60,565 nt of DNA from Elusimicrobiota bacterium (lineage in GTDB: Bacteria; Elusimicrobiota; Elusimicrobia; UBA1565; UBA9628): NCBI GenBank assembly GCA_026388095.1, contig JAPLKL010000030.1, positions 1 through 60,565 of the forward strand, given 5' to 3'. Below, in pieces: positions 55,774 to 60,565 of this stretch. Both the position numbers and the translations under genes were made by a program. Each line of letters opens with the position of its first letter. Position 1 is the first letter of the stretch. Under the pieces are notes generated by a model. That model made no database searches. It had not been told where the DNA came from and worked only from the letters and a program-made list of their open reading frames with translations.

Positions 55774-55779
55774 TATAAT
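55774..55779 (+). promoter_or_regulatory. -10 box of the original tRNA-Pro gene
   Basis: A TATAAT lies 18 nt upstream of the tRNA 5' fragment at 55798. It is probably the original tRNA promoter, now driving a broken tRNA. A second TATAAT (59846-59851) lies 8 nt upstream of the intact tRNA. Confidence 0.5.
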
Positions 55780-55796: not shown

Positions 55797-55860
55797 GCGG
55801 GGCATAGCTCAATTGGCAGAGCGCATGGTTTGGGACCATGAGGTTCTCGGTTCAACCCCG
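55797..55860 (+). pseudogene. 5' fragment of tRNA-Pro(TGG), attachment site left
   Basis: The first 63 nt of tRNA-Pro, through the T-loop, are identical to 59860-59922. The following bases (TCCGTCGAGGA) do not close the T-stem or acceptor stem, so this copy cannot fold as a tRNA. It forms the left direct repeat (64 bp) of the island. Confidence 0.9.
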
Positions 55861-55948
55861 TCCGTCGAGGACTGACTCCAAAAACCTACCAATTCGGGAC
55901 TTGGAAAGCGCACTTGTGCGAGTGCTGCTTATCGGCAGGCAAAGAACA

Positions 55949-56043
55949 AGGGGCCTTGCTGGCTCTCGGACAACCCAAAGGCATCCGCAGCAAGACCCCA
56001 AAACAAAAACCTCCGGGGCAGCGTCCGAGAGCATCCCCTTTTT
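55949..56043 (+). terminator. Long stem with T-run near the left end of the island
   Basis: GCTCTCGGAC (55962-55971) pairs perfectly with GTCCGAGAGC (56023-56032), and AAGGGG pairs with CCCCTT next to it. A run of T (about 56039-56043) follows. It may end transcription from the tRNA promoter or be part of a small structured RNA in 55861-56043. The loop is about 50 nt long, which is large for a simple terminator. Confidence 0.45.
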
Positions 56044-56169
56044 AGCAGGTCAGCGGCAGGTGTCAAGCCCAGTGATACTCTCGGGCGCGTAGCGAGGGGA
56101 TGAAATAGAGATGAGGCATTAGGCCGGAGCAAATATCTATAATCTGTTTACTAGCATTATGGGGAATCA

Positions 56170-56874
56170 ATGAGAAGAAAGCATTTCATGTGGGCAGGCA
56201 TGCTTATGCCAATTCTCATGATGCCTCAGAGTTCTTTGGCAGGGGCTGGATTTGAAGAAGGGAAATACCACGTTTACGGAACATTCGACGCTTTCCTTCC
56301 TGCGAATGCAGGAAATGGACTCAGGGATGACATGCAGGCTGGCATGAACCAATGGGGTGGAATGGGATATGCGTCGGTAGGGAGCATCGAGACCACAGCC
56401 GCTGTCGGAGGGCGGCTTGGCGTCATGGTTAACCTCGCCGAAGAATTTGATCTTGGCATTAGTGGCGGATACATCGTTGGTCCCAATTCAAATTGTTTCA
56501 TCAGCCTGGCTGGCGGAGGGAAATCTGCGGTGGTGTCAGACAAACGTGAAGTCTCTTTCATACGATTCCTTGTTGAGCCAACCGTGAACGCCAAAATGAG
56601 TGAGTATGCTGCTTTCCATTTAGCGGCAGGTCTTGGAATTGCTGAAGGGCAAACCGAAGAAACATTTACTTGCATGGGCACCGCTTGCCTGACAAATACT
56701 GGGCACGACATTTCAACATGGTGCGGTTTCACTTGGGAAGTCTCTCCCTATTTCACCATCAAGGACTTCATCTTGGGGGCTCGTTATGCTGGATTCCCCG
56801 AGTTTAAGGGCAATTCCAGCAACGCGAAGATTGAGTGGACATCCGCGGGCCTCTTTACTGGTTTCAAATTCTAG
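56170..56874 (+). CDS. Probable outer-membrane beta-barrel protein (island)
   Basis: The 234-residue protein has a signal peptide (about residues 1-24). The mature part has alternating beta strands (GKYHVYGTFDAF, TTAAVGGRLGVMVNL, FDLGISGGYIVG) and ends with SAGLFTGFKF, with a C-terminal Phe as in outer-membrane barrels. Four Cys (CFISL, FTCMGTACLT, WCGF) are unusual for such a barrel. The gene is clearly lower in GC than the host genes. Cargo role unknown. Confidence 0.65.
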   Translation: MRRKHFMWAGMLMPILMMPQSSLAGAGFEEGKYHVYGTFDAFLPANAGNGLRDDMQAGMNQWGGMGYASVGSIETTAAVGGRLGVMVNLAEEFDLGISGGYIVGPNSNCFISLAGGGKSAVVSDKREVSFIRFLVEPTVNAKMSEYAAFHLAAGLGIAEGQTEETFTCMGTACLTNTGHDISTWCGFTWEVSPYFTIKDFILGARYAGFPEFKGNSSNAKIEWTSAGLFTGFKF

Positions 56875-57161
56875 AATTGTTGAGTCTCGTATGAGAAAGC
56901 GTTTCTGCCGACAATCCCACTCGCTATGCCCATGATCGACTCGGGGTGGCCCGTTTCTTTCGCCCCTTATGTTCTGGCAAGGGCAGGGAGCAGGAATACC
57001 AACTTTGTCGAGGGGTGCGGGCGGCGAAATGGCGGGGTGTGCTCGCGGACGGTGGAGGGTGCGCGGCCTCTGCCGCAACCCTGAACCTGCTTCCTTATGG
57101 CCTCACTGTGTCGGGCAGGCAGGCGCGCGAGAAGAAGTGTATATGCGGCATTCCGTCTGTG
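56875..57161. other. Island spacer without a supported gene
   Basis: No good ORF is present here. A reading frame at 56946-57263 on the plus strand lacks a clear ribosome-binding site and overlaps the 3' end of the lipoprotein on the opposite strand. No hairpin with a T-run is seen. Confidence 0.4.
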
Positions 57162-57725
57162 CTAATGTTTGCGGATGCGCACAGCGTCTTTGCATTGTTT
57201 AACGAAATACTTATCACTCACCAACCCGGCATTCGCAAGGACCGATGCAACAAACCTCTGTAGCGTGTCATATCTGGCGCTGACAACTCCCGAGCCCACA
57301 AGAGAAAGGTCCTTCTTCCGGATGATGCGCAACTCCCTGCTGTCCGAGTAGGTTACGACAATGTAGTCGGCACTGGCGTCCGGATACATGGCCACGAAGT
57401 CAATCAGTCCGGATGGGCGGGTAATGCTTAAGGCATGTCCCCCAGAAACCCCTACTCCTGACTCGGAAAGGCCTACAACTCCTGCGCTACGCGTTTCGGT
57501 GCGATTCGTCCCCGAATCTAAAAATCTAAGCGGGGGCCGTTCCACCACTCTTAACCCCAGGTGCAATATCTCTCGCTCAATACCTCGGGAAAAATCGGTA
57601 TCTTCGTCGGCCGGAATTACAGTAAAACTCGCCGTGGAGGCCGATTGGTCAACAACGATAAACGGCGCAGGCGCACATCCCGCCATGATCAGGACCGCCA
57701 CCGTAGCCGTCAATGGTTTCTGCAT
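57162..57725 (-). CDS. Lipoprotein of the island (1)
   Basis: The 187-residue product has a lipobox ending at C17 (IMAGC). The body holds strand-rich segments (ADYIVVTYSDSRELRIIRKKDL) and a C-terminal helix. No family is recognised. The N-terminus (MQKPLTATVAV) and its ribosome-binding leader are near copies of those of the next lipoprotein gene (57784-58506), suggesting a duplicated start region. Confidence 0.65.
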   Translation of the reverse strand: MQKPLTATVAVLIMAGCAPAPFIVVDQSASTASFTVIPADEDTDFSRGIEREILHLGLRVVERPPLRFLDSGTNRTETRSAGVVGLSESGVGVSGGHALSITRPSGLIDFVAMYPDASADYIVVTYSDSRELRIIRKKDLSLVGSGVVSARYDTLQRFVASVLANAGLVSDKYFVKQCKDAVRIRKH

Positions 57726-57783
57726 CTGGCCTCCTAAACACCAAACCCGATTCTTGCGACCCCCAACCTTGGGGCCGGATTCA

Positions 57784-58506
57784 TCACTGGCTGACGGGCT
57801 GATAATTCGTGTATTCCTTGAGGAACCACTTCAAAAAATCGGCCTCATCTTGCCGTAGGGATGGGTCCAGGTTAAACTTCCAACTGGGCAGGATGCGCTT
57901 TCCCTTTTCTCTAGTGATGTAATCTTCTATGTCTCCCCTCGTCGCCATGCCTGCCTTCTCAAAAAACTTGGCCGCCTTCTTCTTGTCCTGCCTATATTCT
58001 GCCAACATCGCTTGGTATGGTTCTGGATTCACCACAGGGGCGGCCGTCGTTTGCTGGGTCAACGTGCCCGTGATGGCTGGGGAGGCAGGCACGGTGGCAG
58101 GAATCGCTTCACCAGCTTGGGGAGGCGGCAAGAATGCGCGTGAGGGTTGAGGGGGCACATTCTTATAGCGAATAGCTGTGCCAGTGAGTTGGAGTCCGCA
58201 ATCAGTATAGATTGAGAAGAAATAGAAGGGGAAATAGAAGCAGGACTCATCGGCAAAGACATTTATTAGGGTATCCGCCTTTCCTTTCAACGCATCCTTG
58301 AGGGCTGTCTGTAATGAATAGTCAGCCGTGCCGCCAACAGGAATGCCCAAGAACCAAGCTTGGTTTGCCTTTCCTACGGACATCCCCACAACCTCTTCTT
58401 GTCCTGGCCCCATAGATGCTGATGAGGCAAGCAGGGGTCTCTTGATCGTGCAACCAGCAGCGCCAAGCACCAAGACCACGACCATGGCCGTCAATAATTT
58501 CTGCAT
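57784..58506 (-). CDS. Lipoprotein of the island (2)
   Basis: The 240-residue product starts at ATG 58506 (GGAGGC upstream) and has MQKLLTAMVVV and a lipobox ending at C19 (GAAGC). It has several aromatic residues (CFYFPFYFFSIYTDCG), a Pro-rich middle and a helical C-terminus. A longer reading frame up to 58731 is not needed. It shares the start region with 57162-57725. Function unknown. Confidence 0.65.
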   Translation of the reverse strand: MQKLLTAMVVVLVLGAAGCTIKRPLLASSASMGPGQEEVVGMSVGKANQAWFLGIPVGGTADYSLQTALKDALKGKADTLINVFADESCFYFPFYFFSIYTDCGLQLTGTAIRYKNVPPQPSRAFLPPPQAGEAIPATVPASPAITGTLTQQTTAAPVVNPEPYQAMLAEYRQDKKKAAKFFEKAGMATRGDIEDYITREKGKRILPSWKFNLDPSLRQDEADFLKWFLKEYTNYQPVSQ

Positions 58507-58737
58507 CTTGCCTCCTGCACGACTGCCCAAGTCTAGCAAACTCCGAACCCGTCGGAGAGACGGGAAATCAATGAAAAAGTTAGCGCGTGCATATATGCGC
58601 AGGGCCGCATGGGTCCTCTCGCCGCTCCTAGGGTGCCTCTCGCTCCAACGGGGGCACGAGTTCGGGCTACCCCATCCACGCCCGGGTGCAGGCCCGGCAA
58701 GTCTGCGCTGGCCTCGGATGCTTGGCGACAACGGAAC

Positions 58738-59730
58738 TTACTTGAGCCGGACCTGCCGCCTCTCTCCCGGAACCATGCCCAAGCGGTCCATGGGCGAAAA
58801 CTTTCGATGCTGTAGCGCCACATCCCGGTTCGCCAAACCCACACAGAGCTTGACCGTCTCCATTGTCGAATGGCCGAGAAGCCGCTGGAGTGAGAAAGCA
58901 TCCCCACCGTTGAGTATGTAGGACACCGCGAAGGTGTGCCGCATTGTGTGGGGGGAAACCCTCACGCCCTCCACCCCCGCGCTCCTGCCGTAGCGGGCCA
59001 GCACTTGCTGGAACCACCTCGGCTTTACCGGCCTCCCGAATTGGTCCGTAAAGAAAGCATCCACCCCCGGAATGTCCCCGCGCCGCTGGCGATAGTCCCA
59101 TAGCGCCTTCTTCGCCATCGCGCCGAAATAGACCGTTCGCTCCTTGGCTCCCTTGCCCAAGACCGTGATACCGCTCCCGGCCCAGTCAATGTCTCCGGTC
59201 CTGATAGACAGCAGTTCCGACAGCCGCAGGCCTGTATCAAGCGCCAGCAGGATCATGGTCCAGTTCCGCAGCCCCGTAAAGGTCCGCGTCTTGGGCTGCG
59301 CCAGCAAAGCCTGGACTTGCTCGGGCGACAAGGGCCGTATCACCACCTTGGGGGCCTTGGGCTTCTCCAAGGTCAGCATGGGATTGTTTAGGACCACCCG
59401 CTCACGCTCCAGGAATGCAAAGAAGGTCTTGAGCGTGACGAAGAAACGCCGCACCGAACCCGGGGCCACCCTGCGGCCCGTCTTCGTGGCCGTGCAGTTC
59501 AGATGCTCCAGGTAGGCCCGGACTTGCGGCGCTGTCGTGTGTCGCGGCAGGGGCCGCTCAGGCAGACCGTCCAGGAAGGCCGCAAAGCCCCCCAGGACCG
59601 CGCCATACCATGTGATGGTGTGCGGGGACAGGTTCATGCTGCGGCAGCGCAGCAGGAAAAGCTCGATGGCGGCCTGATACGATTGCTCGGATACGGCAAG
59701 CTCCGACCGGACGGCGGGCAGGCGTTCCAT
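58738..59730 (-). CDS. Tyrosine recombinase with catalytic Tyr replaced by Cys
   Basis: The 330-residue XerC/D-like integrase has an N-terminal SAM-like domain (FLLRCRSMNLSPHTITWY) and a catalytic domain with TGLRLSELL, GKGAKERTV and HTMRHTFA and LLGHSTMETVK motifs. The expected nucleophile (Y in ...TTxxYxxL) is instead C296 (codon TGT at 58843-58845) in KLCVGLANRDVALQH, one base from TAT. It probably is inactive now, or uses Cys. ATG at 59730 has AGGAGGC. The gene lies next to the intact tRNA. Confidence 0.85.
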   Translation of the reverse strand: MERLPAVRSELAVSEQSYQAAIELFLLRCRSMNLSPHTITWYGAVLGGFAAFLDGLPERPLPRHTTAPQVRAYLEHLNCTATKTGRRVAPGSVRRFFVTLKTFFAFLERERVVLNNPMLTLEKPKAPKVVIRPLSPEQVQALLAQPKTRTFTGLRNWTMILLALDTGLRLSELLSIRTGDIDWAGSGITVLGKGAKERTVYFGAMAKKALWDYRQRRGDIPGVDAFFTDQFGRPVKPRWFQQVLARYGRSAGVEGVRVSPHTMRHTFAVSYILNGGDAFSLQRLLGHSTMETVKLCVGLANRDVALQHRKFSPMDRLGMVPGERRQVRLK

Positions 59731-59845
59731 GATGCCTCCTGCCTGCCAAGGAAAGCGCACTCACGGCCTGTTTTGAGGCCCTTTTCGGTGTCTTCCCAGT
59801 GGCCTCAACAGAGCCAATCTCCCCGATTTCTCGACGGCGATTTAG

Positions 59846-59851
59846 TATAAT
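59846..59851 (+). promoter_or_regulatory. -10 box of the intact tRNA-Pro gene
   Basis: A TATAAT lies 8 nt upstream of the tRNA start at 59860. It lies inside the island, so the island supplies the promoter of the intact tRNA. Confidence 0.6.
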
Positions 59852-59859
59852 CGCCGCTG

Positions 59860-59932
59860 CGGGGCATAGCTCAATTGGCAGAGCGCATGGTTTGGGACCA
59901 TGAGGTTCTCGGTTCAACCCCGAGTGCCCCGA
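59860..59932 (+). tRNA. tRNA-Pro (anticodon TGG)
   Basis: The 73-nt tRNA has acceptor arms CGGGGCA/TGCCCCG, D-arm GCTC...GAGC, anticodon stem CATGG/CCATG with loop TTTGGGA (TGG), and T-arm CTCGG-TTCAACC-CCGAG. CCA is not encoded. Its 5' 63 nt are the right direct repeat of the island, and its last 10 nt are chromosomal. Confidence 0.97.
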
Positions 59933-59972
59933 CATCTTTCGTCCGGTCAGGAGCCGGCGGCCCGCAGCGGGG

Positions 59973-60565
59973 CTAGAGCGCGTTCAGCAGGCGGCTGAAC
60001 TCGGAGGCGTCGCGGACCCTCTTGCTGGGATCCGGCGCCAGCACAGAGGCCATGAAGGGCTCGACCTCCTGGGGGAGATACGCCGCGATGAAGTTGGGCG
60101 GCACGTACGCCAGGCGCTCCTTCTGGGCGAGGTAATCCGGCCCCTTGAACGGGAGCTCGCCGGTCAGCAGCTCGTAGAGGCACACGCCCAAGGCATAGAT
60201 GTCCGAAGCGCGCCTGGTGTGGCCCAGGTGCTGCTCGGGCGCCATGTAGGCGAGCGTGCCCGACGTTTCGCCCACGGTCAATTGCTGCGAGGTTTCCTGC
60301 GCCACCCGGGCCAGGCCGAAATCAAGAATCTTGATATAGCCTTTGGTGTCGAACATGATGTTGGAGGGTTTGAGGTCTCGGTGCAGGATCTTGGCCTGGT
60401 GGGCGCTGGAGAGCGCGAAGCAGATATGGCCGAAGATCTCTTGGCACTCCTTCAAGGTGAAGCGCTGCCTCTCCTTCAGGATTGCGGACAGGGTCCTGCC
60501 TTCGACGTAATCCAAGACGAGGAAGAGCTCGTCTTTATCCTCGATGATCTCATGGATGCCCACGA
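59973..60565 (-). CDS. Ser/Thr protein kinase, C-terminal part (runs off window)
   Basis: The visible 197 residues are the C-lobe of a Hanks-type kinase: HRDLKPSNIMFD, DFGLARV, GTLAYMAPEQ and SDIYALGVCLYELLTGELPF. The start and the N-lobe (Gly loop and ATP-binding Lys) are outside the window. The protein ends soon after the kinase fold, with no C-terminal sensor domain. It lies 40 bp from the tRNA on the opposite strand. Confidence 0.9.
   Translation of the reverse strand, partial: VGIHEIIEDKDELFLVLDYVEGRTLSAILKERQRFTLKECQEIFGHICFALSSAHQAKILHRDLKPSNIMFDTKGYIKILDFGLARVAQETSQQLTVGETSGTLAYMAPEQHLGHTRRASDIYALGVCLYELLTGELPFKGPDYLAQKERLAYVPPNFIAAYLPQEVEPFMASVLAPDPSKRVRDASEFSRLLNAL

Follow-up and report, generated by a model that had tools for sequence, protein, structure and literature searches.

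The tRNA-Pro(TGG) gene near the right end of a contig from an Elusimicrobiota bacterium (JAPLKL010000030.1, GenBank assembly GCA_026388095.1) borders a small, probably immobile island that likely integrated there through a tyrosine integrase, in the less common of the two polarities, contributing a promoter and the 5' part of the tRNA. The stretch analysed, hereafter the window, is one whole contig of 60,565 nucleotides. A repeat search returned a single pair of 64-nt sequences, 100% identical, at 55797-55860 and 59859-59922 (spacing 4062), and the 4.06 kb between the repeat copies hold a tyrosine integrase; the earlier note on this DNA, which had described a perfect 64-bp direct repeat bounding about 4.1 kb with an integrase, is thereby confirmed by the repeat search and the match to PF00589. 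ARAGORN calls a tRNA for the right copy only (59860-59933, Pro, TGG), and the Rfam tRNA model scores 66.3 bits at the right copy and 36.0 bits at the left (gathering threshold 29). The left copy is still tRNA-like, but its 3' acceptor strand is gone. A TATAAT box, read from the sequence, stands 5' of both copies. The restored gene is the sole TGG tRNA-Pro copy found in this genome, whose second tRNA-Pro match, on contig C48, has the anticodon CGG as read by eye. The guanine-plus-cytosine fraction is 0.563 in the island and 0.661 to its left. Of the features by which Islander recognises islands, the following are found here: an intact tRNA and a same-strand end fragment with the island between them, an integrase gene inside, a length (4.06 kb) within 2-200 kb and, for its configuration filter, a 5' fragment upstream of the tRNA.

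The polarity is read from a comparison with six genomes of the same genus (G001-G006). The 60 nt upstream of the tRNA-Pro genes of G001 and G003 score 48 and 50 against the left flank of the window, values that 0 of 2000 shuffles reach in either case, and 22 and 29 against the right end, reached by 4 and 0 of 2000 shuffles, respectively. Because the intact tRNA-Pro of G001 and G003 has the left promoter region, the left promoter is taken as ancestral and the right one as island-borne. The claims of the earlier note that the left copy keeps the old promoter and lacks the 3' end, and that the island carries the promoter and the 5' part of the tRNA, are thus both supported, the former also by the repeat search and the Rfam score, the latter by upstream regions in G001 and G003 that fit the left flank better than the right end. 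Its further statement that only the last 10 nt of the tRNA are chromosomal holds as a minimum, the crossover being possible anywhere inside the 64-bp block. Among the best six matches per pair of genomes, window genes 18.7-50 kb to the left of its tRNA have syntenic counterparts upstream of tRNA-Pro in G003 and G004, and one gene upstream of the tRNA-Pro of G001 is syntenic with a window gene about 9 kb to the left; G002 has a tRNA-Pro match of only 89% and G006 has none. The flank to the right of the tRNA would then presumably be chromosome.

We envisage that the tRNA copy carried in attP was nearly complete (positions 1 to about 63) and came with a promoter, and that the integrase gene flanked attP on the side of this promoter. 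The crossover, most likely in the anticodon loop, would have stranded the old promoter at the left, together with a tRNA copy lacking the 3' end; at the right it would have placed the island promoter and 5' part before the chromosomal 3' part, giving an intact tRNA; the island promoter is presumably functional in that position. The integrase itself has an open reading frame over 330 codons and keeps all of the catalytic residues R169, K193, H261, R264 and H287, but residue 296 is Cys instead of the catalytic Tyr that is present in 39 of 42 aligned rows (of the others, one has a gap and one is frameshifted). Since the canonical mechanism relies on this Tyr, the enzyme is probably dead and the island immobile; the loss may be recent, as is suggested by repeats that are still perfect.

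Several observations weigh against the history that we propose. The right promoter also resembles that of G003 above shuffles (29; 0 of 2000), although less than the left promoter does, and the upstream sequences of tRNA-Pro in G004 and G005 match neither island end well. The flank from 59933 onward adjoins a tRNA in none of the six same-genus genomes, and contig C52 of this genome ends in a stretch 97% identical to the last 404 bases of the window (60162-60565). Also, a fragment, an integrase and an intact tRNA share one contig in two islands only, that of the window and one in G008. The earlier note had asked for an empty site with upstream sequence like the left flank and downstream sequence like 59933 onward; the upstream half of this expectation is borne out in G001 and G003 and the downstream half is not, a query with the right flank in the six genomes, together with synteny, yielding matches to the left side only and no clean empty site. 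Empty sites resembling the right end, named as the refuting case, were looked for in the same-genus genomes and not seen. The opposite history, in which the right end is old chromosome and the left material came later, making an ordinary 3' type with rearranged flanks, is very improbable: it draws on a right-flank neighbourhood that is closed to comparison, as the contig ends within a repeated kinase gene about 0.6 kb beyond the tRNA and cannot be extended, but both the left promoter region and the gene order match the same-genus tRNA-Pro loci, and the intact tRNA lies on the integrase side of its own 5' end. Least probable of all is a history without integration, in which a tandem duplication of the tRNA (or its copying by some other element) was followed by decay of the left copy and the integrase is a bystander. 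Perfect direct tRNA repeats can indeed come from duplication, and the integrase looks dead; however, the promoters of the two copies differ and the left one is ancestral, the integrase is at the usual place of its family, the motifs of that family mark the ends, each of which also has a copy of a repeated arm-like site, and the left end is common to another tRNA island. A different doubt concerns the integrase. That the Cys296 protein is not dead but altered, or repurposed to bind DNA and keep the island where it is, would suit the remaining catalytic residues and the open frame; we regard it as quite unlikely, because a single transition (TAT to TGT) is enough for a recent loss, the repeats are still identical and the outward promoter of the island (see below) has decayed.

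Granted the integration proposed here, the position of the crossover can be judged from the island ends. Of 24 proximal ends, 16 contain the hexamer TCGACG/CGTCGA (shuffle mean 1.7, maximum 6), as do 9 of 18 distal ends (shuffle mean 1.9, maximum 6). Distances from the anticodon to the end motifs were taken by hand in the relatives: in those whose integrase faces the 3' end of the tRNA (3' types) the distal motif lies at 33-34 nt at several ends and at 22 and 43 nt at others, and the proximal motif is 58-59 nt away in most 3' types and about 88 nt away in the tRNA-Met 5' types; the values are 44 and 48 nt in G004, and 44 and 54 nt at the distal ends of G002 and G006. By eye, the GGAAAGCGCACT repeat inside both window ends occupies the place of the relatives' arm-like repeat, and the tRNA copy at the shared island end is full length in G002 and G006 and lacks only positions 1-3 in G004. 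Based on the motif spacing and on the long tRNA blocks usual in this genus, exchange in the anticodon loop is likely. What counts against it is that the identity block of the window reaches position 63, in the T stem, versus position 41 in the tRNA-Met 5' types; moreover, the T stem-loop is a known exchange site of other tRNA islands (Islander, Table 1 footnote, PMC4383910). Yet a crossover in the T loop or T arm, with the polarity unchanged and the identity stopping at position 63 for that reason, seems unlikely, as the window motif distances, if centred on the T loop, would become about 11 and 82 nt, unlike those of the relatives, and the fragments of the tRNA-Met relatives end at position 41 or start at positions 28-35. 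The T-arm crossover put forward in the earlier note is therefore not upheld: the end motifs, 33 and 60 nt from the anticodon, are placed as in relatives, and near-full-length tRNA copies are the rule in the genus.

Islands of both polarities are found among the related integrases of the Elusimicrobiota. Some integrase match at E ≤ 1e-20 is present in 55 of 56 genomes of the order, many of these matches no doubt being other recombinases. The integrases most like that of the window adjoin tRNAs, mostly tRNA-Met, and its best identity (56-57%) is to integrases facing tRNA-Met 5' ends. At 24 junctions, chosen from loci in which a tRNA was found and leaving out loci without one, the integrase faces the tRNA 3' end in 17 and the 5' end in seven (the window, G008, G033, G032, G024, G034 and G003). 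A search of 12 genomes for tRNA-Met fragments gave 5' fragments (positions 1-41 or 2-41) in three, G008, G057 and G033; 3' fragments, which begin at positions 28-35, were numerous. The 23.7-kb island of G008 has the displaced 5' fragment (positions 1-41), the 5'-facing integrase and the intact tRNA-Met on one contig, and encodes a type I restriction-modification system and a TraG/TraD-like protein. In G057 no window-like integrase lies between the tRNA-Met 5' fragment and the tRNA; in G033 the 5' fragment is on a different contig; for G032, G024 and G034 the fragment search gave 3' fragments only, and their 5' type is a matter of gene order alone. A single tRNA-Met stands between two related integrases, one 3'-facing and one 5'-facing, in G033 (contig C119, L080, 4330-6542) and in G032 (contig C456, L081, 1128-3340). 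On trees labelled 5' or 3' by gene order alone (15 rows without label; the partial G034 sequence left out of both trees, the frameshifted G003 and the long-branched G004 out of the second), the 5' label clusters, with values as low in 0 of 500 shuffles for the first tree and 1 of 500 for the second. A single clade of 5'-type integrases is neither shown nor rejected (two label changes on both trees; approximately unbiased test, p 0.082). Two further loci with the same gene order, at tRNA-Lys in G190 and at tRNA-Leu in Paenibacillus wulumuqiensis, have no convincing displaced 5' copy in the stretches examined and are not counted.

The left end of the island has a history of its own. Positions 55939-56092 are 84% identical to a stretch of G004 that lies just within one end of a tRNA-Gly island, apparently a 3' type, whose integrase, on another contig, is only 29% identical; since this end is common to an island with so distant an integrase, island bodies and integrase-att modules have probably been exchanged between islands. 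Here lies a candidate pseudoknot RNA. Pairing is kept at 11 of 12 positions of helix 1 and 10 of 10 of helix 2 in the window, G004 and G002, at 11 of 12 and 11 of 11 in G006, and at 8 of 11 of helix 2 in a fifth copy, from G001, with compensatory changes at several pairs. Interleaved helices of the observed size arise in 0 of 400 shuffles of the window, G004 and G002 sequences and in 1 of 400 for G006; G001 has none. A control on two sequences is weak (136 of 500 shuffles reach the value), and the case rests on the five. A covariance model built from two sequences and run on 44 genomes of the family recovered the two founding copies and three clear further ones; all five are in the same genus, and four adjoin a tRNA copy. 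Six covariance-model matches with E 0.007 to 0.04 are not counted, BLAST matches in G036 and G238, short and in apparent coding sequence, were rejected, and no Rfam family matches the stretch.

Of 21 related distal ends, 17 have an extended -10 pattern that reads outward (shuffled mean 0.19, maximum 2), and none has one that reads inward. By eye, a -10-like box precedes helix 2 by 6 nt on the outward strand of the pseudoknot copies, and the RNA would therefore start with helix 2; perhaps it is the leader of an integrase mRNA made in the excised circle. At the window's own left end the outward -10 pattern is absent, so that a far-end promoter like Pcirc of ICEclc is not recognised there. In ICEclc, Pcirc reportedly reads across the joined circle ends into the integrase gene. 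Located at the far end of that element, it is given in Table 1 of PMC2892462 as a promoter of intB13; here, the corresponding promoter is predicted from sequence only, is decayed in the window and would have the pseudoknot RNA before attP. In the excised circle of active relatives, transcription from the far-end outward promoter would cross attP and enter the integrase gene whichever the polarity, and the two types would be set apart by an inverted tRNA segment within attP. We raise as a tentative and somewhat doubtful generalisation that, in one Elusimicrobiota integrase family, this segment was inverted in evolution, so that near relatives capture the same tRNA from either side, 3' or 5', through one kind of anticodon-loop exchange and can sandwich one tRNA gene; that the circle order (outward promoter, structured RNA, attP, integrase) stayed fixed; and that the RNA of the window's genus is a new pseudoknot leading a circle-only integrase mRNA.

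What follows a displaced tRNA copy differs among loci. A terminator-like hairpin (AAGCGCTG..CAGCGCTTTTTT) comes after the displaced 5' tRNA-Met half in three genera (L129, 6573-6635; L130, 7181-7243; L131, 2695-2757), the hairpin and T run having fold z-scores of -4.0, -2.3 and -3.0. It could stop the orphaned old promoter, which might make a short RNA with the tRNA half at those three loci. No terminator hairpin was found after the displaced copy in the window.

The window island is a member of a known minority, since Islander already lists 5'-fragment islands: in its Table 1 a 5' fragment is displaced in 159 of 3919 islands, and the earlier note is right in saying that the 3' part is what most tRNA-targeting islands carry (3760 of 3919; PMC4383910). 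It shares with these islands the integrase inside, the intact tRNA at one end and the same-strand upstream 5' fragment at the other, and a size within 2-200 kb; unlike them, it has an integrase without the catalytic Tyr, a nearly full tRNA copy displaced and relatives of both polarities. A review states that bacterial tRNA genes retain their original promoter with very few exceptions, and describes the pTN3-like integrases as unique among archaea in their use of the tRNA 5' half (PMC8371274). Those are archaeal, and the tRNA is said there to be expressed from the integrase promoter, whereas the window has a divergent integrase and a tRNA with a TATAAT box of its own. The rare integrase-tRNA shapes SIT and OD together make up less than 8% of 1273 pairs in one survey (PMC2951348); in OD, as in the window, the integrase adjoins the tRNA and is divergent, but as described that survey classes gene order only. 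In the literature surveyed, as far as it reaches, neither a family with both polarities at one tRNA nor an island-end pseudoknot appears, which does not prove absence. The case matters because a mobile element would have taken over the promoter of tRNA-Pro(TGG), whereas split bacterial tRNA genes nearly always keep the old one. Near relatives with both polarities at the same tRNA allow one to ask what fixes polarity, be it the integrase, the overlap sequence or the need for tRNA expression, and the island-end pseudoknot is a concrete candidate RNA for tests.

Table 1. Features of the island and its borders in the window
Positions	Strand	Feature	Basis
55774..55779	+	Old -10 box (TATAAT) of tRNA-Pro, now preceding the displaced copy	Sequence; region kept 5' of intact tRNA-Pro in G001 and G003
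55797..55860	+	Left copy: one base 5' of the tRNA and tRNA positions 1-63, without the 3' end	Repeat search; Rfam
55861..55872	+	Distal end motif TCCGTCGAGGAC, centre 33 nt from anticodon centre	Motif search
55903..55914	+	12-bp arm-like direct repeat GGAAAGCGCACT, left copy	2/5000 shuffles
55950..56032	-	Candidate pseudoknot RNA, left island end, probably transcribed leftward	Helix comparison (copies at L256, L347, L348, L349)
56039..56066	-	Decayed outward promoter: TTGACA (56066-56061), TAAAAA (56044-56039)	Pattern search
56170..56874	+	Cargo open reading frame (ORF), signal-peptide-like start, no family match	ORF list, family searches
57162..57725	-	Cargo ORF, lipoprotein-like start, no family match	ORF list, family searches
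57784..58506	-	Cargo ORF, lipoprotein-like start, no family match	ORF list, family searches
58738..59730	-	Tyrosine integrase, divergent from tRNA, Cys at catalytic Tyr (residue 296)	PF00589, E 3.4e-29
59750..59761	+	12-bp arm-like direct repeat GGAAAGCGCACT, right copy	2/5000 shuffles
59827..59840	+	Proximal end motif TTTCTCGACGGCGA, centre 60 nt from anticodon centre	Motif search
59846..59851	+	Putative island-borne -10 box (TATAAT) preceding the intact tRNA	Sequence
59860..59932	+	Intact tRNA-Pro(TGG): 5' part island, 3' part chromosome	ARAGORN, Rfam; polarity from promoter comparison

As to the origin and cargo of the island, comparison with phages was not informative (best phage match 31.6% identity, best IMG/VR match 40%). 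The longer of the two lipoprotein-like genes shows a weak likeness to an ORF of G001 (37% over 75 amino acids), and a 46-bp stretch around the starts of both (57690-57735 and 58471-58516) is 83% identical, as if duplicated. Elsewhere, on a short contig of another genome (G053, C127, L011, 1374-2100), a tRNA-Pro is surrounded by tandem repeats of its own halves, in units of 49 bp for the 3' half and 119 bp for the 5' half.

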